Part shown: positions 2,877-21,205 of the stretch, piece after piece
Numbering within the stretch: position 1 is the first letter of the stretch
How the letters are laid out: every line of letters begins with the position of its first letter
NCBI RefSeq assembly: GCF_000711195.1
Contig: NZ_JOMR01000001.1
Coordinates: 1,364,001 to 1,428,000, forward strand
Direction: 5' to 3'
DNA from: Thiomicrospira pelophila DSM 1534
Lineage (GTDB): Bacteria > Pseudomonadota > Gammaproteobacteria > Thiomicrospirales > Thiomicrospiraceae
Length of the DNA: 64,000 nt
Program-made: the position numbers and the translations under genes
The notes under the pieces: model-generated
What the model was told of the DNA's origin: nothing
What the model saw: only the letters and a program-made list of their open reading frames with translations
The model's database searches: none

Positions 2877-3464
2877 ATGAAAGTCATAAAAACCATAAAA
2901 CGTTGGGTCAATCCTAATCAGCAGTCCCAGCAGTTTAATGAGCGGCTACATAGTAACTATACAAACCTATATCGTTTGGCTTATTCCTGGGCACAACAAA
3001 AACCTTTAGCACAAGATTTAGTACAAGAAACCATGCTCAAGGCCATCGAAAAAAACTATCAACTCAAACAGCTTAATGAGATGACACCCTGGTTATGCAA
3101 AATCATGCACAACCTCTATATCGATAAATTGCGCTATGACCACAAATGGTTATTTGTTGAAGAAACCGAAATCGACAATCAAATTGCCAGCCCCTCTTCT
3201 GAAGATAGTTTTATTGAAGAACAAACCCACTTCAATATTCATCAAGCCATCGGCCAGTTAAGTGCTGGACAACGCGAAATCATTACCTTAGTGGATCTGC
3301 AAGGATTGAGCTATCAACAAACTTCTGAAATACTAGACATACCTGTTGGTACGGTTATGTCGCGCCTGTCACGTGCGCGAAACCAGCTAAAGGTTTTATT
3401 AAAGCCCGAACAGAAAGACAGCTCAAAAAAAGACAATGTGGTCTACTTGGAGGCCCAAAAATGA
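2877..3464 (+). CDS. ECF-type RNA polymerase sigma factor
   Basis: A 195-residue sigma-70 family protein with only regions 2 and 4. Region 2 is about residues 22-90 (NLYRLAYSWAQQKPLAQDLVQETMLKA, with the usual D-LVQETF-like motif). Region 4 is about 120-175 (LSAGQREIITLVDLQGLSYQQTSEILDIPVGTVMSRLSRAR), a textbook helix-turn-helix. It directs RNA polymerase to a small regulon when released from its anti-sigma factor. That factor is encoded next and overlaps the stop codon in an ATGA arrangement, so the two are translationally coupled. The 245-bp leader before it is very AT-rich. I could not identify an autoregulated ECF promoter with certainty. Confidence 0.92.
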   Translation: MKVIKTIKRWVNPNQQSQQFNERLHSNYTNLYRLAYSWAQQKPLAQDLVQETMLKAIEKNYQLKQLNEMTPWLCKIMHNLYIDKLRYDHKWLFVEETEIDNQIASPSSEDSFIEEQTHFNIHQAIGQLSAGQREIITLVDLQGLSYQQTSEILDIPVGTVMSRLSRARNQLKVLLKPEQKDSSKKDNVVYLEAQK

Positions 3465-4147
3465 ACAATCCTTTTTCGCACTATAAAATTCATGCCTATA
3501 TTGATGGTGAATTATCCGCTGATGAAATGGCGACATTAGAACAACAACTCTCGACCAATCCAGCCTTAAAAGCCGAGCTATGTGAACTCACGCACAACAA
3601 ACGTAAACTGCATCAATACTACAGCCATATTACCCCACCCAAGTCTTCTATGCCTCGGTTATCGACCCTCAATCAATATGGTCGATTAGCGGCCTCGATT
3701 TTATTGGGGGCTTTTCTTGGCACGGCCTCACTCTACAGTTATCAGAACCTGAATTCAGCCGAGATGAATGTCGTGCAAACTGAATCTTCAGTTCCAGTTG
3801 AATCCAATTTTGTAGTGCACCTGGATACTAACCAACCTGATAAATTGGCGGCTACTTTAGAAAAAGCGCGTTATCTATTGGATACCAGCCCCACAACAAA
3901 AGTCGAAATCATTACAAATCATGAAGGCATACAACTATTTGATGCGTCGCAAGCCACCTCTAAACAAATTATGCAATTACTCACTCAGTACGATAATTTG
4001 CATTTAATGGCCTGTCAGCGCACGGTTGAGCGCTTAGAAAAACAAGGTGAGGCATTTGAACTTCTGCAAAAAGTTCGCGCCGACTCGCCAGCCGTGGATG
4101 AAGTGGTGGCTAAAATGAAGCAAGGCTGGACCTATATTAAAATTTAA
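3461..4147 (+). CDS. Membrane anti-sigma factor with a DsrE-like periplasmic domain
   Basis: 228 residues in three parts. Residues 1-60 form a cytoplasmic anti-sigma domain (HAYIDGELSADEMATLEQQL is the usual opening). The zinc HxxxCxxC motif of the ZAS class is absent; only Cys41 is present. Residues 76-92 form one membrane helix (LAASILLGAFLGTASLY). Residues 115-228 form a periplasmic domain. That last domain aligns by eye with the secreted DsrE-like protein encoded downstream: FVVHLD against VVYHIN, KVEIITNHEGIQLF against DAKVVMHGNGLELL, NLHLMACQRTVERL against VDFSVCANTLRGKN, GWTYIKI against GYVYIRP. Both have one cysteine at the equivalent place (Cys185 here). The arrangement implies that the outer domain senses a signal and controls release of the sigma factor; this is inference. 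Confidence 0.8.
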   Translation: MNNPFSHYKIHAYIDGELSADEMATLEQQLSTNPALKAELCELTHNKRKLHQYYSHITPPKSSMPRLSTLNQYGRLAASILLGAFLGTASLYSYQNLNSAEMNVVQTESSVPVESNFVVHLDTNQPDKLAATLEKARYLLDTSPTTKVEIITNHEGIQLFDASQATSKQIMQLLTQYDNLHLMACQRTVERLEKQGEAFELLQKVRADSPAVDEVVAKMKQGWTYIKI

Positions 4148-4193
4148 TAATATAGCTATATATTTTTAATTAATAGACTGATAAAAAACGAAG

Positions 4194-4213
4194 ATGGAAT
4201 AAAAATGGAATAA
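4194..4213 (+). promoter_or_regulatory. Tandem ATGGAATAA repeat upstream of the DsrE-like gene
   Basis: ATGGAATAA occurs at 4194-4202 and again at 4205-4213, an 11-bp spacing that places both on the same face of the helix. A perfect small inverted repeat (AGAAAC-ATTA-GTTTCT) follows at 4238-4253. Both lie in the AT-rich gap between the anti-sigma gene and the DsrE-like gene. They may be a regulator or ECF promoter site; no protein can be assigned. Confidence 0.3.
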
Positions 4214-4288
4214 TCGCGTTATTTATATGAGAAGCAAAGAAACATTAGTTTCTAAAAATAATTAAATATAAATAATGAGGTTATTCAA

Positions 4289-4738
4289 ATGAAAACATTA
4301 CAAACCATTTTCTCTATCACATTGGCTAGCTTATTGGCTTTAACATCAACCCAAACTTTAGCGGTTGACAGCAAATACAACGAACAAAAAGTGGTCTACC
4401 ATATCAATTATGATGATGTAAAAAGACAAGGCGGTTCGCTTCGAAACATCCAAAACCATATTAATAGTGTCGGCGCAGATAGAATTGATGCCAAAGTCGT
4501 CATGCACGGTAATGGGCTAGAATTATTAAGACACGCAAAAACCAATCAAGGCATGCAAGCAAGTATCGATAACTTAAAATCTCAAGGGGTAGATTTCAGT
4601 GTCTGCGCAAATACCTTGAGAGGCAAAAATATCTCTTTAGATGAGCTTTATGATGCTAAAGAAAGCGATATCGTCCCCGCTGGTGTGGCTGAAATTGCAC
4701 ATTTACAACAGCAAGGTTATGTTTACATCAGACCATAA
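4289..4738 (+). CDS. Secreted DsrE-like protein
   Basis: 149 residues with a signal peptide (MKTLQTIFSITLASLLALTS, cleavage probably after TLA at about residue 25). The mature domain has the DsrE/DsrF-like pattern: a strand KVVYHINYDD, a long helix, a strand AKVVMHGNGLELL, a helix, then DFSVCANTLRG with single Cys106, and the closing QQGYVYIRP. Members of this family bind or relay sulfur, or act in redox reactions, in sulfur oxidisers; many periplasmic ones are uncharacterised. It follows the sigma/anti-sigma pair by 141 bp on the same strand and resembles the outer domain of that anti-sigma factor. It is therefore a good candidate for a target or ligand partner of that system. A strong terminator follows. 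Confidence 0.8.
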   Translation: MKTLQTIFSITLASLLALTSTQTLAVDSKYNEQKVVYHINYDDVKRQGGSLRNIQNHINSVGADRIDAKVVMHGNGLELLRHAKTNQGMQASIDNLKSQGVDFSVCANTLRGKNISLDELYDAKESDIVPAGVAEIAHLQQQGYVYIRP

Positions 4739-4851: not shown

Positions 4852-5153
4852 TATATGATGCCTTGTTGTATGATGGGCACCACCTGATAATGCAAACTGG
4901 CCTTAGTCAGAGTTTTACGTAAAAACGCCAACAAAGGTTCAAGCTCAGCCTCTTCAATGACAATCATATAAAAGAGCGTATCTTGATATCCCATAACCTG
5001 TTCACTTGCACTCAACGCTTGTGTGTCTAGATGGTAATCTCGTATCAAGCTAGTGCTAAACACCAGCTCAGGTTCATAACACAATAAGGCATCAGTGAGC
5101 TCGGTTGCACGTGCTTGACGCGCATGTATTTGTAGTTGAATCCGCTTAGTCAT
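4851..5153 (-). CDS. DUF3240-family small protein of the RND efflux operon
   Basis: A 100-residue soluble protein starting MTKRIQLQIHARQ at 5153, overlapping the last codons of the pump gene (stop at 5146). It has the alternating beta-alpha pattern of a small ferredoxin-like domain (IQLQIHARQARATELTDALL, then FYMIVIEEAELEPLLAFLRK). DUF3240 proteins are commonly encoded directly after CzcA/CusA pumps and may be PII-like accessory or metal-responsive proteins; their role is not settled. The overlap means it is translationally coupled to the pump. The in-frame extension to 5183 (MHLNCCQEET) lies entirely within the pump gene and is less likely. Confidence 0.7.
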   Translation of the reverse strand: MTKRIQLQIHARQARATELTDALLCYEPELVFSTSLIRDYHLDTQALSASEQVMGYQDTLFYMIVIEEAELEPLLAFLRKTLTKASLHYQVVPIIQQGII

Positions 5154-8100
5154 GGTTTCCTCTTGGCAACAATTTAGGTGCAAAACGGTGATATAAAATC
5201 GGCAGCACCAACAAGGTTAAAAGCGTCGAAGTGAACAAGCCGCCGATGACCACAATCGCGAGCGGACGTTGTATTTCAGAACCTGGGCCAGTCGCAAACA
5301 CTAATGGTACCAAACCTAACGCAGCGATACTGGCCGTCATCATCACGGGTCTCAAACGGCGCATCGCGCCCTCAATTACCACCTCGTGAATACTCAAACC
5401 TTTTGCCCAAAGTTGATTGAAATAAGACACCATCACCACGCCATTTAACACCGCGATACCCAGCAAAGCGATAAACCCGACAGAAGCTGGAACCGATAAA
5501 TACTCACCCGTTAGCCAAAGTGCGCCTATGCCGCCAATTAAGGCTAATGGGATATTAGTTAATACCATCGCCGCCAAGCCCGTCGAGCGGAAGGTAATAA
5601 ACAGCAGTAAGAAAATAAAGCCCAGCGATATTGGCACGACCAAAGCTAAACGTTTCGCCGCGCGCTGTTGATTCTCAAACTGACCACCCCAGGAAAAATA
5701 GTAACCGGCTGGCATATCTAAATCACTAACCGCGACTTTCGCCTCTTCAACGAAACCAACCAAATCTCGACCCGTAACGTTAGCCACCACAATCGAAAAA
5801 CGTTGGCCTTGTTCACGCTGTACCGAAACCGGGCCGACGACCCACTCAACTTTAGCCAATTGGCTTAAAGGCATGGATTGTCCGTTCGGTAGCACAACTG
5901 GCTGTTGTAAAAAGACTTCAGGCGCAGACCTTATGCTTGCGTCAGCTCGTACCAGAAGCGGCATAGCCCTTGAGCCTTCATATACCACGCCAATTTTCTC
6001 ACCTTCTAGTTGCGTGCTCATCACACGAGATACCTGCTCAACACTCAGACCCAGTTGCGCTAGCATTTTTGGATCGTAGCTTATTTGTAGATATTTGGCC
6101 CCGTCATTAACTGGGGTAAACACGTCCTGCGCCCCTTCGATTTTTTCAACCTTGGTCACCACCTGTTGGGCAATCCGATTTAACGCATCTGGGTCATCCC
6201 CGAATATTTTAATCGCTAAATCGCCACGTGCGCCGGTCAACATTTCATCTACCCGCATCTGTATCGGTTGGGTAAAGTTATAGTTCACCCCAGGAAACTG
6301 CTCCACGACCTGACGTATCGCATCTTCTAGTTCCGCTTTGGTCTCCATTCGCCACTCATCACGCGGTTTAAGTACCAAGAAACTGTCTGTGTCATTCAAG
6401 TTCATGGGATCCATACCCAACTCATCTGAACCGGCACGTGCCACAATACGCTTAACTTCCGGCACCTGTTGCAAAATGGCTTTTTGAACCTGTTGATCAA
6501 TATAGAGAGAACTTTCAAGATCAATCGCTGGAATCTTTTCCAATTGCAACAAAATATCGCCTTCATCCATCGTTGGCATAAAGGTTTTACCGACTTGAGT
6601 ATAAACTACACCAGCACCAAGTAATGCCACTAAAGCCACCGCTAAAACGCCTTTGTCATGAGTTAAGGCCCAATTTAAAGTGGGGCGATACACAGCGGTG
6701 AGTTTACGCACTAACCAAGGTTCTTTATGCGACACTTCGCCCAACAAGAAAGAAGCGAGCAATGGGATAACTGTCAAAGACAATATCAATGAACTACCCA
6801 ATGCAAACACAATGGTCAAGGCCACTGGCTTAAACAACTTGCCTTCCAAACCTTCAAGCGTCAATAAAGGCACGAAAACCAGCATAATAATTAAAATCCC
6901 GGTGATCACCGGCACACTGACTTCCTGCACCGCTCGGTAAATAACGTGCAACTTAGGCAAACGTGACTGAGCATGCGCTTGACGAATAACAATATTCTCA
7001 ACTACCACCACGGCGGCATCGACCAACATACCAATGGCAATAGCCAAGCCTCCTAACGACATGAGGTTCGCCGACAAGCCATAGGTTTTCATGAGTATAA
7101 AGGTCATCAAAGCGGCTAAAGGCAACACTAACGCAACCGTCAAGGCCGCACGCAGGTTTCCTAAAAACACAACTAATAGGATCAATACCAATACCACCGC
7201 CTCAAACAAGGCTTTCGCCACGGTATTAACCGCACGTTCAACTAGATCTCCTCGATTGTAGAAAACATCCAAACTCAGACCATCCGGTAAAGCGGGCTGT
7301 AATTGTTCAATTGCGGCTTCCACCCCTTCGACTACTTTACGTGCATTCGCGCCACGTAAACTCATCACCAAGCCTTGCACCACTTCGCCTTCACCGTTTT
7401 CGGTTACGCCGCCGTAACGTGTTAAGCCTTCAAAGCGCAAATCAGCAATATCTGACATCATTACTGATCGACTTAACTCACCCTGTTCATCTAACTCAGC
7501 CCCTTTAACAACTAAATTGCCTAAGTCATCTAACGTTTGGATGCGCCCTTGCGAGCGAACCAATAAGACTTCTTCACCTTGACTCACTCGGCCAGCACCA
7601 TCATTAAGATTGTTGCGTTCCACGACTTCGAGCAAGTGTTCCAAACTCACTTGATGCGTTTTCATCGCTTGCCAATCAGGCACAATAGTATAAGCGCGCA
7701 CTTCACCGCCCAACGCATTCACATCTGCCACACCAGGTACCGCGCGCAAGGCTGGACGAATCACCCAATCCAATAACTCGCGTTTCTCAGCGTTCGTTTG
7801 GCTGTCACCACTCAAGGTGAACATAAACATATCACCCAATGGCGTGGTTAAAGGCGCTAAACCGCCGTCTATCCCGGCCGGCAAATCCGCCCAAATATTG
7901 CCTAACCGCTCCGATACCTGTTGGCGGGCCCAGTAAATATCCGTGCCCTCTTTAAAATCAATGGTGATATCGGTTATTGCGTACTTAGACATAGAGCGCA
8001 ATACTTTTTGATTGGGAATGCCCAGCATTTCCAACTCGATTCTTGAGGTAATACGAGCCTCAACCTCTTCCGGCGTCATGCCCGGTGCTTTGATAATGAT

Positions 8101-8247
8101 TTTCACCTGAGTAGTAGAAACGTCGGGAAATGCGTCAATCGGTGTAGTTTTAAATGCCATCCAGCCGCCGGCGATTAATACCACCGTCAACAGCGCCATG
8201 AGAATACGCTGAGTAAGCGCTAATTGGATCAAACGATTCAACATCAC
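5146..8247 (-). CDS. Heavy-metal RND efflux pump (CzcA/CusA family)
   Basis: 1033 residues, the usual length for the HME-RND inner-membrane proton/metal antiporter. The first helix (about residues 13-30) is followed by a large periplasmic loop beginning FKTTPIDAFPDVSTTQVKI, the hallmark opening of CzcA-type pumps. The central helix block includes GMLVDAAVVVVENIV, with the charged residues of the proton relay, and the second half repeats the layout (SVGFIALLGIAVLNGVVMVSYFNQL). It would export a metal cation from periplasm or cytoplasm through the partner adaptor and outer-membrane channel encoded upstream. The start is GTG 8247 or the adjacent ATG 8244, directly at the adaptor stop. The exact metal (Zn, Co, Cd, Cu or Ag) cannot be fixed by eye. 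Confidence 0.93.
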   Translation of the reverse strand: MMLNRLIQLALTQRILMALLTVVLIAGGWMAFKTTPIDAFPDVSTTQVKIIIKAPGMTPEEVEARITSRIELEMLGIPNQKVLRSMSKYAITDITIDFKEGTDIYWARQQVSERLGNIWADLPAGIDGGLAPLTTPLGDMFMFTLSGDSQTNAEKRELLDWVIRPALRAVPGVADVNALGGEVRAYTIVPDWQAMKTHQVSLEHLLEVVERNNLNDGAGRVSQGEEVLLVRSQGRIQTLDDLGNLVVKGAELDEQGELSRSVMMSDIADLRFEGLTRYGGVTENGEGEVVQGLVMSLRGANARKVVEGVEAAIEQLQPALPDGLSLDVFYNRGDLVERAVNTVAKALFEAVVLVLILLVVFLGNLRAALTVALVLPLAALMTFILMKTYGLSANLMSLGGLAIAIGMLVDAAVVVVENIVIRQAHAQSRLPKLHVIYRAVQEVSVPVITGILIIMLVFVPLLTLEGLEGKLFKPVALTIVFALGSSLILSLTVIPLLASFLLGEVSHKEPWLVRKLTAVYRPTLNWALTHDKGVLAVALVALLGAGVVYTQVGKTFMPTMDEGDILLQLEKIPAIDLESSLYIDQQVQKAILQQVPEVKRIVARAGSDELGMDPMNLNDTDSFLVLKPRDEWRMETKAELEDAIRQVVEQFPGVNYNFTQPIQMRVDEMLTGARGDLAIKIFGDDPDALNRIAQQVVTKVEKIEGAQDVFTPVNDGAKYLQISYDPKMLAQLGLSVEQVSRVMSTQLEGEKIGVVYEGSRAMPLLVRADASIRSAPEVFLQQPVVLPNGQSMPLSQLAKVEWVVGPVSVQREQGQRFSIVVANVTGRDLVGFVEEAKVAVSDLDMPAGYYFSWGGQFENQQRAAKRLALVVPISLGFIFLLLFITFRSTGLAAMVLTNIPLALIGGIGALWLTGEYLSVPASVGFIALLGIAVLNGVVMVSYFNQLWAKGLSIHEVVIEGAMRRLRPVMMTASIAALGLVPLVFATGPGSEIQRPLAIVVIGGLFTSTLLTLLVLPILYHRFAPKLLPRGNHD

Positions 8248-9356
8248 TACTCGCCTCCTTCCAGTATGGCTTTCAGTGCGGCGGTACCTTTACTGACGAC
8301 TTGTGTGCCCAACCACTTGTCGGCCCCTTCAATACGAACCGTAGCACGCTGATCATCACGATATAGCAAGTCTGCAGTTAAAGCTTGCAACTGCTGGTTT
8401 TGCTTAAAAAACAACCAGGCCTGCTCATCTAAGTGAATTAAAGCCTTCGCGGGCACTGACATCAAATCCTTACTCGGATAAATAAACTGCGCCTTTAAAC
8501 TTTGGCCTGGGCGTAAATTCTTCAACTTCTGCGGCAAAGCCACCACGACCTTAACACTTTGCATTAATGGCTCAACGCGACCATCAATGATTATAATTTC
8601 ACCCTGTGCATCCAAACCCTGCAACGCCACAGCCTGACCGACTGACAAGCTTTGCGCTTGGTTTAAGCTGACTTTTAAGTTTAACCAAAGTGGCGAGGTT
8701 TGCTCCCATTGTAAAATTGGCTGATTTTCAGTGACACGTTCGCCAGAGCTTGCCAAAATCTTTACCACCAGGCCTGGTGCCGATGCGCTCAAATTCAATC
8801 TTGGACTTTGCAGCTTTCGAGTCTGCTTCAAGGCTTGTAAAGCTTGAGAACTCATACCCATTAATGCCAGGTTTTGCCAAACTTCATCCAATTTACGACT
8901 GAGGTTCGCAACTTCGGCGCGCGAAGCCTGTAAACGCTTTTGTGCCACCACACCGCTGTCGGCTAACTCTTCATCACGCGCTAGGTTTTGTTTCGCCAAA
9001 TCAAGATCTGACAAGACCGCCAACGCTTCACGTTGTAAGGTCAAACTCCGAGGACTGTCGATTTGAGCTAAAACCTGACCTGGCTCAATCCGTGCACCCT
9101 CGGTTAAATTCTGCAGATGCAGCAAGCCGCCCGAACCCGCGCTCATAATATGGCTCTGCCCACTAGGTACTGATACTAATCCGTTCCAAGTTGACGATAC
9201 ATAATTCGATACAGATTTGACCTCTGAAAACTGGAGTCCGAACGCCTGCTGTTGTGATTCGGTCAAAGCCAAATCTTGTGTTTGCGCACCGACTAAACTT
9301 GACCAACTCAGGGTGGCGGTCATAAAAACTGAAACAAATAATGCGGACTTTTTCAT
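8247..9356 (-). CDS. RND efflux periplasmic adaptor (CzcB/CusB type)
   Basis: 369 residues with a signal peptide (MKKSALFVSVFMTATLSWSS, cleavage near residue 24). It has the membrane-fusion-protein order: a barrel-sandwich half (GGLLHLQNLTEGARIEPGQVLAQIDSPR), a coiled-coil hairpin at about 105-175 (LAVLSDLDLAKQNLARDEEL onward), the returning lipoyl half (SAPGLVVKILASSGERVTENQPILQWE), a beta barrel, and a membrane-proximal domain. It bridges the RND pump and the outer-membrane factor. Its start overlaps the end of the outer-membrane gene by 4 bp (ATGA) and its stop touches the pump start. One exact palindrome copy (8767-8778) encodes PGLV in the lipoyl domain. Confidence 0.9.
   Translation of the reverse strand: MKKSALFVSVFMTATLSWSSLVGAQTQDLALTESQQQAFGLQFSEVKSVSNYVSSTWNGLVSVPSGQSHIMSAGSGGLLHLQNLTEGARIEPGQVLAQIDSPRSLTLQREALAVLSDLDLAKQNLARDEELADSGVVAQKRLQASRAEVANLSRKLDEVWQNLALMGMSSQALQALKQTRKLQSPRLNLSASAPGLVVKILASSGERVTENQPILQWEQTSPLWLNLKVSLNQAQSLSVGQAVALQGLDAQGEIIIIDGRVEPLMQSVKVVVALPQKLKNLRPGQSLKAQFIYPSKDLMSVPAKALIHLDEQAWLFFKQNQQLQALTADLLYRDDQRATVRIEGADKWLGTQVVSKGTAALKAILEGGE
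8767..8778. repeat. Iterated palindrome copy inside the adaptor gene
   Basis: Exact ACCAGGCCTGGT. Read on the minus strand in the gene's frame it gives P-G-L-V within SAPGLVVKI. Confidence 0.95.
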
Positions 9357-19303: not shown

Positions 19304-21205
19304 TTAGATCAACTTACCTGCGTAATCCGCGATACCTGGGTTATCGCTCACACCTTTCAATGTTGGGTGGTTAACTTTGTTTAGCTTCAAGTTACCTTTG
19401 TGGTTACGTAGGTAATCTGCTGCTACGTCCCACATCAAGCGACCTTCACCAACTTGGTCAACTTGCGCCCAACCAGCTACAGTATAAGTTTTGTTCGGCT
19501 CAACTGGGGTACCATCGTCCAACGTGATGTTGGTGATACGACGACCCAAAGTTTCGTTAGGATCACAAACATAATCCAAACCACCGATACGTGCCATATC
19601 ACCACCTGATTGAAGGTAAGGATCAACCACAAATAGGTTTTCACAAATCCCTTCAAACACGTCTTTCAACTCAGCACCCGTCATTTCTGTACGATAGGTT
19701 TCACCATAGGTTAACGACGTTTCATCCATAACGCGTTCCATAGTGATCATTTCACCCTGGATAACTGAGGTACCCCAACGAACACCTGCAGACATGGCAA
19801 TTTGAGTATCATGCTCTTCACGTAACGCGTTCACCAAAATCTGGTCCCACGTACCCATGAAGTTACCACGACGGTAAAGCGTATCTTCCGCTTCGCCAAA
19901 CTCTTCGCTTAAGATTTCACCATAGGTTTTTCCTAAACGATCTTTATTGTTCTTGTACTTAGCGTTACGTGCTTCAACCACGTTTTCATCATATTTACGC
20001 TGATATAGATCAGAAATAAATTGATTAACACCTTTGTCGGCTTCTAATACATTCGAGAATACTGGCAACAAACGGTAATCGATACCTTTTAACTTGCCTT
20101 CTTGAATATCTAAATCCATTACACCAACAAACTTACCGTTAGAACCGGCGTTAGTTACATAACAAACACCGCCTTCTGGTGTTTTAACCTTAGTTGGGAT
20201 CGGCATACCATCGTGAGTGTGACCACCGAAGATTGCATCGATACCGTTTACACGGCTAGCCATCTTAATGTCAACGTCCATACCGTTATGCGAAATCATG
20301 ATAACCGCGGCTACTTTTTCGTTTGCACGAATGTGGTCAACCGTTTCTTGCAAGTCTTCTTCACGTAAGCCAAATGACCAGTTAGGGAAGTTAGCTTGTG
20401 GGTTTGCATTAGATAAACGTGGGAACGTCTGACCAACAACCGCAACACGCTCACCATTCACTTCTTTAATGGTGTAAGGCTTAAACGGACGTAGTTCATC
20501 TTCGTTATATAAACCAATACCGTATTTTTCAGTTACGTCATAATAGGCGTCACCAAATAAAGCGTCTTCACGAATACGCGTGTTTTGAGAAACATACTCA
20601 CCTTTAAACGCTTGTAGGTTTCTCAGAACTTCGTGTTCTTCATAGGTAAATTCCCAGTGACCAGTCAAAATATCCATACCTAATAGGTTAGACGCTTCAA
20701 CCATGTCCATACCACGTGTCCAAAGAGCGGTTGCTGAACCGTGCCACAAGTCACCACCATCCATGTAGATCGTATTTTGACGTCCACCAGCCTGGTCACG
20801 TAGCATGTCTAATAAAGTTTTTAGGTGGGCAAAACCACCCACTTTACCGTAACGAGCGGCCGCATCTTCGAAATCAAGGTAAGAAAAAGCATAAGACTCA
20901 GGTGTACCTTCTTTAAGACCGACGTTTTCTAGCAATGCTTTACCAACAATGTGTGGACGCTTACCATAAGCTGGGCCCACACCAAGGTTGACGTTTGGCT
21001 CACGGAAGTGAATTGGCTTTAACTGTGCGTGAGTATCGGTAGTGTGTAATAAACGAACTTTGCCTTTCATTGGCACGTTATACATGCTGGCATCACCAGA
21101 CCATTCACCTGGTTTATCACCCATTGCACGAGCACCAGCTGGCAACATACCAGCGGCAGCGGCTACAGCCATTACGTGTAGAAATTCGCGACGATTTAAA
21201 GACAT
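19304..21205 (-). CDS. soxB: Thiosulfohydrolase SoxB of the Sox thiosulfate-oxidation system
   Basis: 633 residues. The N-terminal NRREFLHVMAVAAAAGML is a twin-arginine-type signal, so the enzyme folds with its metals in the cytoplasm and is exported to the periplasm. The metallophosphatase-like domain carries the binuclear manganese ligands in TTDTHAQL, DGGDLWHGS, GHWEFTYEEHE, ISHNGMD and GGHTHDG. A 5'-nucleotidase-type C-terminal domain starts at about residue 420. GHWEFTY is diagnostic of SoxB. It hydrolyses the sulfone sulfate from the SoxYZ-bound intermediate. It is somewhat longer than well-studied SoxB proteins (about 560-575 residues). No other sox gene lies near, which fits Thiomicrospira-type genomes, where sox genes are scattered. 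Confidence 0.95.
   Translation of the reverse strand: MSLNRREFLHVMAVAAAAGMLPAGARAMGDKPGEWSGDASMYNVPMKGKVRLLHTTDTHAQLKPIHFREPNVNLGVGPAYGKRPHIVGKALLENVGLKEGTPESYAFSYLDFEDAAARYGKVGGFAHLKTLLDMLRDQAGGRQNTIYMDGGDLWHGSATALWTRGMDMVEASNLLGMDILTGHWEFTYEEHEVLRNLQAFKGEYVSQNTRIREDALFGDAYYDVTEKYGIGLYNEDELRPFKPYTIKEVNGERVAVVGQTFPRLSNANPQANFPNWSFGLREEDLQETVDHIRANEKVAAVIMISHNGMDVDIKMASRVNGIDAIFGGHTHDGMPIPTKVKTPEGGVCYVTNAGSNGKFVGVMDLDIQEGKLKGIDYRLLPVFSNVLEADKGVNQFISDLYQRKYDENVVEARNAKYKNNKDRLGKTYGEILSEEFGEAEDTLYRRGNFMGTWDQILVNALREEHDTQIAMSAGVRWGTSVIQGEMITMERVMDETSLTYGETYRTEMTGAELKDVFEGICENLFVVDPYLQSGGDMARIGGLDYVCDPNETLGRRITNITLDDGTPVEPNKTYTVAGWAQVDQVGEGRLMWDVAADYLRNHKGNLKLNKVNHPTLKGVSDNPGIADYAGKLI

Follow-up and report, generated by a model that had tools for sequence, protein, structure and literature searches.

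To our knowledge, how sulfur oxidizers sense extracellular sulfur compounds is poorly known. Anti-sigma factors that take their signal from a periplasmic partner or through thiol chemistry are exemplified by RseA/RseB and RsrA/ChrR; RseA is not known to have a DsrE fold, and RsrA/ChrR works through a cytoplasmic zinc-cysteine site. A small gene cluster of Thiomicrospira pelophila DSM 1534 raises the question of whether an anti-sigma factor could instead sense sulfur through a periplasmic domain resembling DsrE. A preliminary description of this DNA, made from the sequence, proposed that sulfur species or a secreted partner modify a cysteine of such a domain and thereby release the sigma factor.

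The locus and its genes

The window (the whole stretch of DNA analyzed, 64,000 nt) lies in a 2.1-Mb genome assembled as one contig with a completeness of 100. Gene calls and Pfam searches bore out the trio that had been described at 2877–4738 (ECF sigma factor, anti-sigma factor and secreted DsrE-like protein), and its features are as follows:

2877..3464, + strand: ECF sigma factor P0001, 195 aa (Pfam Sigma70_r2, Sigma70_r4_2)
3461..4147, + strand: predicted membrane anti-sigma factor with DsrE-like outer domain, P0002, 228 aa (gene order, sub-threshold anti-sigma matches, model helices)
3800..4144, + strand: DsrE-like outer domain, P0002 residues 114–228 (VIA, hhalign)
4013..4015, + strand: codon of Cys185, the lone cysteine of the P0002 outer domain (C in 63/63)
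4196..4220, + strand: predicted ECF promoter of dsrE, GGAATAA-N14-CGTT (motif conservation)
4289..4738, + strand: secreted DsrE-like protein P0003, 149 aa (PF02635, VIA)
4604..4606, + strand: codon of Cys106, the lone cysteine of P0003 (C in 52/52)

P0001 is short and consists of sigma-70 regions 2 and 4 only (PF04542, Sigma70_r2, 1.5e-9, 37.9 bits, cut-off 24; PF08281, Sigma70_r4_2, 1.2e-17, 63.7 bits, cut-off 25.7), as the criteria for ECF sigma factors specify. The anti-sigma gene overlaps the sigma gene by 4 nt. Its product, P0002, gave a sub-threshold zf-HC2 match in Pfam (residues 9–31, 9.4e-4, 19.7 bits, cut-off 22.2) alongside two weaker, unrelated ones, and scored 24.0 and 23.0 bits against NCBIfam anti-sigma models with cut-offs of 225 and 100. 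The full-length structural model is middling (pLDDT 73.9): helices span residues 7–55, a further helix at 75–95 is modeled at low confidence, and the linker and membrane part (residues 64–112) falls below 50; the most hydrophobic stretch begins at residue 76. We infer that P0002 binds P0001.

The preliminary description had also drawn attention to a missing zinc motif. The absence itself stands, since no CxxC occurs in the columns of residues 1–70 among 64 aligned anti-sigma sequences, nor was the Hx3Cx2C of the ZAS criterion found. Its significance does not: according to the available text of PMC7406223, a zinc motif is missing from about half of the class I anti-sigma factors that are membrane-bound, so that its absence carries no weight, and loss of the zinc finger was dismissed as a mark of novelty. 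The cytoplasmic zinc-cysteine site of the RsrA/ChrR type is likewise absent from the P0002 family. Residue 41 of P0002 is a cytoplasmic cysteine within the anti-sigma domain that many, though not all, close relatives share, and it could be a second redox input.

A DsrE-like fold inside and outside the anti-sigma factor

P0003 matches the DsrE family directly (PF02635, 37.7 bits, cut-off 22.7, 2.6e-9), and its model (pLDDT 89.8) has an N-terminal helix at residues 2–19 and a hydrophobic stretch from residue 7. For the outer part of P0002 the sequence evidence is divided: Pfam returned no DsrE match to PF02635 at E-values up to 10, whereas phmmer aligned residues 114–227 with MTH1491 (1l1s; E = 1.6e-4) and hhalign joined 30 anti-sigma outer domains to 12 secreted partners (probability 97.75, E = 1.3e-12, 114 columns). 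This last alignment sets Cys185 opposite Cys106, in agreement with the correspondence between the two proteins noted earlier by eye.

Structure prediction, which had been suggested as a check, led both proteins to the same fold. From residue 111 onward the P0002 model has a confidence of 74–91 per ten-residue block, and Foldseek returned 1l1s as the first match of both AlphaFold models (TM on target 0.90 for P0002 and 0.88 for P0003). By VIA, the P0002 outer domain superposes on 1l1s with Z 17.9 (rmsd 1.9 over 110 residues) and on the DsrE of DsrEFH (2hy5_A) with Z 13.0 (rmsd 2.5 over 109), and P0003 superposes on 1l1s with Z 17.1 (rmsd 1.7 over 111; Z 17.1 is also given against 2pd2). Three solved structures (MTH1491, ST0148 and a designed protein of that family) are shared as matches by both models, at Z 16.6–17.9. 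Compared in this way through their shared match 1l1s, the models and alignments confirm the predicted DsrE-like fold of the P0002 outer part and bear out the proposal of a DsrE-like periplasmic domain on an anti-sigma factor. MTH1491 and ST0148 share fold and length with it, and MTH1491 the aligned cysteine, but they are single-domain PF02635 proteins, whereas in P0002 a membrane helix stands between the domain and the anti-sigma domain to which it is fused.

A quick tree of 83 domains, built on few columns and with many open forks elsewhere, places the 45 anti-sigma outer domains on one side of a branch (SH-aLRT 99). The simplest, if unproven, reading is therefore that a DsrE-fold domain was captured once by an anti-sigma factor. 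The genome of the window encodes a second secreted DsrE protein (L002 1414–1863; G000:C1:335063), which is 51% identical to P0003 over the match and sits beside a divergent ArsR-like regulator (named by eye); the exact ECF promoter pattern has no match there. Three further DsrE-like paralogues (L003 1492–1974, L004 1492–1965 and L005 1165–1857) are far diverged from P0003.

A lone and invariant cysteine

From residue 96 onward, the 64 anti-sigma sequences compared (window included, one truncated) have no cysteine other than Cys185, whose column holds C in all 63 that reach it. Cys106 is likewise the only cysteine in the mature part of 53 secreted partners (one truncated) and is present in 52 of the 52 reaching its column. 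The cysteine is thus kept throughout these relatives, where its loss would have counted against the preliminary model. Because each outer domain has a lone cysteine, a disulfide within the outer domain is excluded as the switch.

Other positions of the anti-sigma outer domain are also kept, i.e., His120 and Asn153 (each 63/64), Gly156 (62/64), Gly222 (60/63) and Trp223 (63/63). The secreted family has N-T after its cysteine, which is absent after Cys185, so the chemistry of the outer domain may differ. A cysteine that could carry sulfane sulfur, as in sulfurtransferases of the DsrE type, is present. In Metallosphaera, DsrE3A and tetrathionate yield Cys-S-thiosulfonate (PMC4175335, available text).

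Distribution and gene order

Matches to P0002 occur in 35 of 74 close-relative genomes (E ≤ 0.01; 4 of 9 within the genus), in 38 of 62 genomes of the order (E ≤ 1e-6, a few being fragments) and, in some form, in 103 of 369 genomes of the class sample (E ≤ 1e-6). Hand-counted among the matches listed, 65 class genomes carry a full-length version, defined as reaching from profile position ≤10 to ≥219. Farther out the protein thins: the phylum sample gave 4 of 398 genomes at E ≤ 1e-15 (three full-length, one being the window genome), the 289 genomes sampled from the class of G576 yielded no full-length match, and none of eight matches in plasmid records covered more than 80% of its length. The nearest named relative is a Thiomicrospira assembly with 87% identity in the outer domain, and the other eight loci of that search belong to Thiomicrorhabdus (five), Thiomicrospira (one), Hydrogenovibrio (one) and an unassigned gammaproteobacterial assembly (one).

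The three-gene order described for the window was recovered in part. The sigma gene lies directly upstream of the anti-sigma gene in 30/30 close loci (29 from the window's family and one from a different family), and at least one secreted dsrE gene lies within the stretch fetched in 28 of them; the exceptions are L014, whose stretch includes 130 nt ahead of the sigma gene, and L035, where a porin occupies the usual place of dsrE. However, the arrangement is patchy, as the genus count illustrates, and dsrE is usually divergent. Specifically, the usual order places one or two dsrE genes and a porin divergent from sigma and anti-sigma genes, and the window differs: among the 30 loci, dsrE follows the anti-sigma gene on the same strand only in L006, L007, L009 and L010 (the window and three genus relatives).

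At class level (27 loci, L045–L071, with L045 repeating the genome of L033), dsrE adjoins the pair in 20. Two of the seven others (L046 and L064) are cut by a contig edge; the remaining five (L052, L055, L056, L065 and L071) are not, and have no dsrE within ~1.5 kb on either side. The genome of L071 (G168) carries a DsrE gene elsewhere, and G270 (L060, L107) has two such sigma/anti-sigma pairs in tandem with dsrE on either side. Apart from sigma, anti-sigma/DsrE and porin, protein clusters recur in at most 4 of the 27 wider loci.

Promoter and likely targets

A GGAATAA-N14/15-CGT motif lies upstream of the sigma-nearest dsrE in 29 of 32 close-relative loci, versus 0.36 expected from shuffles (counted with the pattern GGAAT-N15-18-CGT, window included, kinship uncorrected). 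The misses are L019, L021 and L033, the first two of which have a site if a shorter gene start is taken. In the window the predicted promoter begins 93 nt before the dsrE ATG and is the only match to a looser pattern in all 64 kb, where chance alone would give 0.53. At class level this motif, counted in the same way, lies ahead of sigma in 10/27 loci and of dsrE in 5/20 (0.35 and 0.2 expected); with a looser pattern, and a set that takes in four close loci, the counts are 11/31 and 9/23 (2.9 and 2.2 expected). This conservation supports the view that the sigma factor transcribes from such promoters, and by the same sequence evidence the secreted dsrE looks foremost like a target of the sigma factor, not its activator.

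No promoter match lies upstream of the window's own sigma gene, and autoregulation was rejected for its neighborhood, with 1 of 35 close-relative sigma genes carrying a promoter versus 0.43 expected. The exact pattern occurs at two sites in the window genome (the second at 976732) versus 4 and 4 for the reversed control. A wider regulon was rejected as well: nine other genomes gave 36 sites versus 32 control sites in all, although two exceeded their controls (G033, 5 versus 1; G016, 7 versus 2).

A porin-like gene, which the preliminary description had not mentioned, is present in 20 of the 27 wider loci and follows dsrE in relatives. Of three such genes scanned, one scores above the Porin_O_P cut-off and the other two have no match, so the name rests on cluster likeness for the rest. 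Only two of the 20 have a promoter directly upstream of the porin (L103 and L104, both without dsrE, at 139 and 171 nt), and none of the 18 loci with dsrE before the porin does (for L097 and L100, dsrE was counted from the overlapping loci L048 and L051). L035 lacks dsrE as well; its divergent gene is such a porin, with GGAATAG-N15-CGT ~97 nt before its ATG. As the porin carries the promoter itself in these three dsrE-less loci, it is likely a target, and we consider it likely from these sequences that the porin belongs to the sigma regulon in relatives. In the window's genus the porin is absent from the sigma locus; tblastn with one porin query, a search that shows little, found no homologue in the window genome.

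These patterns bear on an alternative in which the outer domain senses the secreted DsrE paralogue instead of sulfur, with a hetero-oligomer or a Cys185–Cys106 disulfide locking or opening it. Some DsrE-fold proteins do form heterohexamers (e.g., TusBCD), and the action of RseB on RseA offers a model. The shared fold, the matching lone cysteines (one on each side, which leaves an intermolecular disulfide possible) and the frequency of dsrE as a neighbor at both close and class level all speak for it. Yet the five class-level loci without dsrE, the porin in its place in L035, and the promoter at the porin in three dsrE-less loci speak against it, although such genomes may carry a DsrE gene elsewhere, as G168 does, and we regard it as unlikely. 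Since relatives exist without an adjoining dsrE, the secreted partner is not indispensable for giving the signal; with the promoter suggesting dsrE as a target, the part of the preliminary model that made the partner the signal is weakened.

Link to sulfur oxidation and ECF26

The expected tie to sulfur oxidizers was found: among the matches listed, soxB is present in 64 of 65 full-length carriers (the exception being G099) versus 85 of 304 other sampled class genomes (Fisher p = 1e-28, kinship uncorrected). Here soxB was counted if above the family cut-off, plus one copy cut by a contig end, and the 369-genome draw was taken as the same for both searches (handles and number agree). The 85 genomes with soxB lack the full protein, which is thus not needed for Sox. 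Among the matches listed, soxB and the module are no more than 5 kb apart in G200, G310 and G211; in G211 (L109 3848–6064) soxB with a further dsrE directly behind it lies ~2 kb from the module. The window's soxB (TIGR04486, a 633-aa ORF at 19304–21205 on the − strand) is ~15 kb from the sigma/anti-sigma/dsrE module.

The promoter motif, too, points to a sulfur-linked family. The available text of PMC6180224 gives the ECF26 consensus as GGAATA (−35) and GT (−10), which the locus motif contains (29/32 loci), with the spacing of the Sinorhizobium meliloti rpoE4 promoter. RpoE1 and RpoE4 of S. meliloti are active on thiosulfate and taurine, a signal their authors read as sulfite (PMC6180224, PMC3511301, available text), while activation of the S. 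meliloti ECF26 sigmas is called hypothetical and a divergent S8 protease a common ECF26 neighbor (PMC6180224, available text). Such a divergent protease is present at two of four inspected plasmid hits (H14 and H16).

ECF systems often control outer-membrane proteins, and the module could be an ordinary envelope-stress or porin-homeostasis system in which the DsrE-like domain is a mere fold, the cysteine structural, and the sulfur link a product of descent and habitat. That the soxB statistic is uncorrected for kinship, and that P0002 resembles the half of its class's membrane anti-sigma factors without zinc (PMC7406223, available text), fit this account. However, it sits poorly with a single cysteine that stays invariant through many families of genomes, with targets that include the receiver's own fold, and with the near-universal soxB of carriers among the matches listed; we think it improbable, somewhat more so than sensing of the paralogue.

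A further alternative is a redox or thiol-toxicant sensor, with Cys185 answering oxidants, arsenite or metals and not sulfur species. Besides the lone cysteine itself, DsrE/F-like genes of Thioalkalivibrio change under arsenite (PMC6620896, available text), and downstream in the window a heavy-metal RND pump-like gene is found; genes resembling a large RND pump and adaptor (named by eye) adjoin the module at 5146–9356 on the − strand. The pump is on the other strand, though, and belongs to no cluster shared by more than the few wider loci given above; together with the soxB association and an ECF26-type promoter whose relatives respond to sulfite, this makes the toxicant account very improbable.

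A proposed periplasmic sulfur receiver

Our best reading, which we hold to be probable by a modest degree, is a periplasmic sulfur-responsive anti-sigma factor that controls DsrE carriers and a porin. As the family suggests, the N-terminal helices of P0002 would hold the sigma factor at the inner membrane, and the DsrE-fold outer domain would have turned receiver, with Cys185 persulfidated, thiosulfonated or otherwise reacting with reduced sulfur species of the Sox/thiosulfate pathway, or with sulfite. The modified domain would then change so that the sigma factor is released, perhaps through proteolysis, and the freed sigma factor would transcribe the secreted dsrE gene(s) from GGAATAA-N14/15-CGT promoters and, in relatives, the porin behind. 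The secreted DsrE proteins would be periplasmic sulfur carriers; because they share fold and cysteine with the receiver, they could take sulfur off it and reset it, i.e., provide negative feedback. We put forward only tentatively the more specific form, in which sulfane sulfur or thiosulfonate on Cys185 of the captured domain is the direct signal, free DsrE removes the sulfur and the porin admits the compound, giving sulfur-oxidizing Gammaproteobacteria a self-resetting gate.

The closest known systems are RpoE1-EcfR1 and RpoE4-EcfR4 of S. meliloti (ECF26), which likewise combine an ECF sigma with a membrane anti-sigma factor, a GGAATAA...CGT promoter, a sulfur-linked signal and a small regulon (PMC6180224, PMC3511301, available text). 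They differ in that the outer part of EcfR is described as somewhat similar to RsiW, whereas that of P0002 is DsrE-like, and in that the targets of RpoE1/RpoE4 are the SorT sulfite dehydrogenase and others, whereas here they would be DsrE and a porin. The available text of PMC3445524 ties ECF systems to sulfur oxidation and mentions no DsrE-type sensor domain; the word DsrE is also absent from the main text of PMC7406223. The claim that no anti-sigma factor sensing through a DsrE-type domain has been described agrees with our search, which found no anti-sigma factor with a DsrE domain in the literature covered (most subscription journals lay outside it).

While pairs of ECF sigma and anti-sigma factors, ECF systems that respond to sulfur, and DsrE proteins are already known, the proposed DsrE-fold receiver on an anti-sigma factor has no counterpart in the literature covered and looks like an undescribed way of sensing extracellular sulfur. 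It offers a receiver open to testing, made of a single domain with a single cysteine, and a ready reporter in the dsrE promoter; it also points to a likely role for secreted DsrE proteins and for a porin in sulfur oxidizers.
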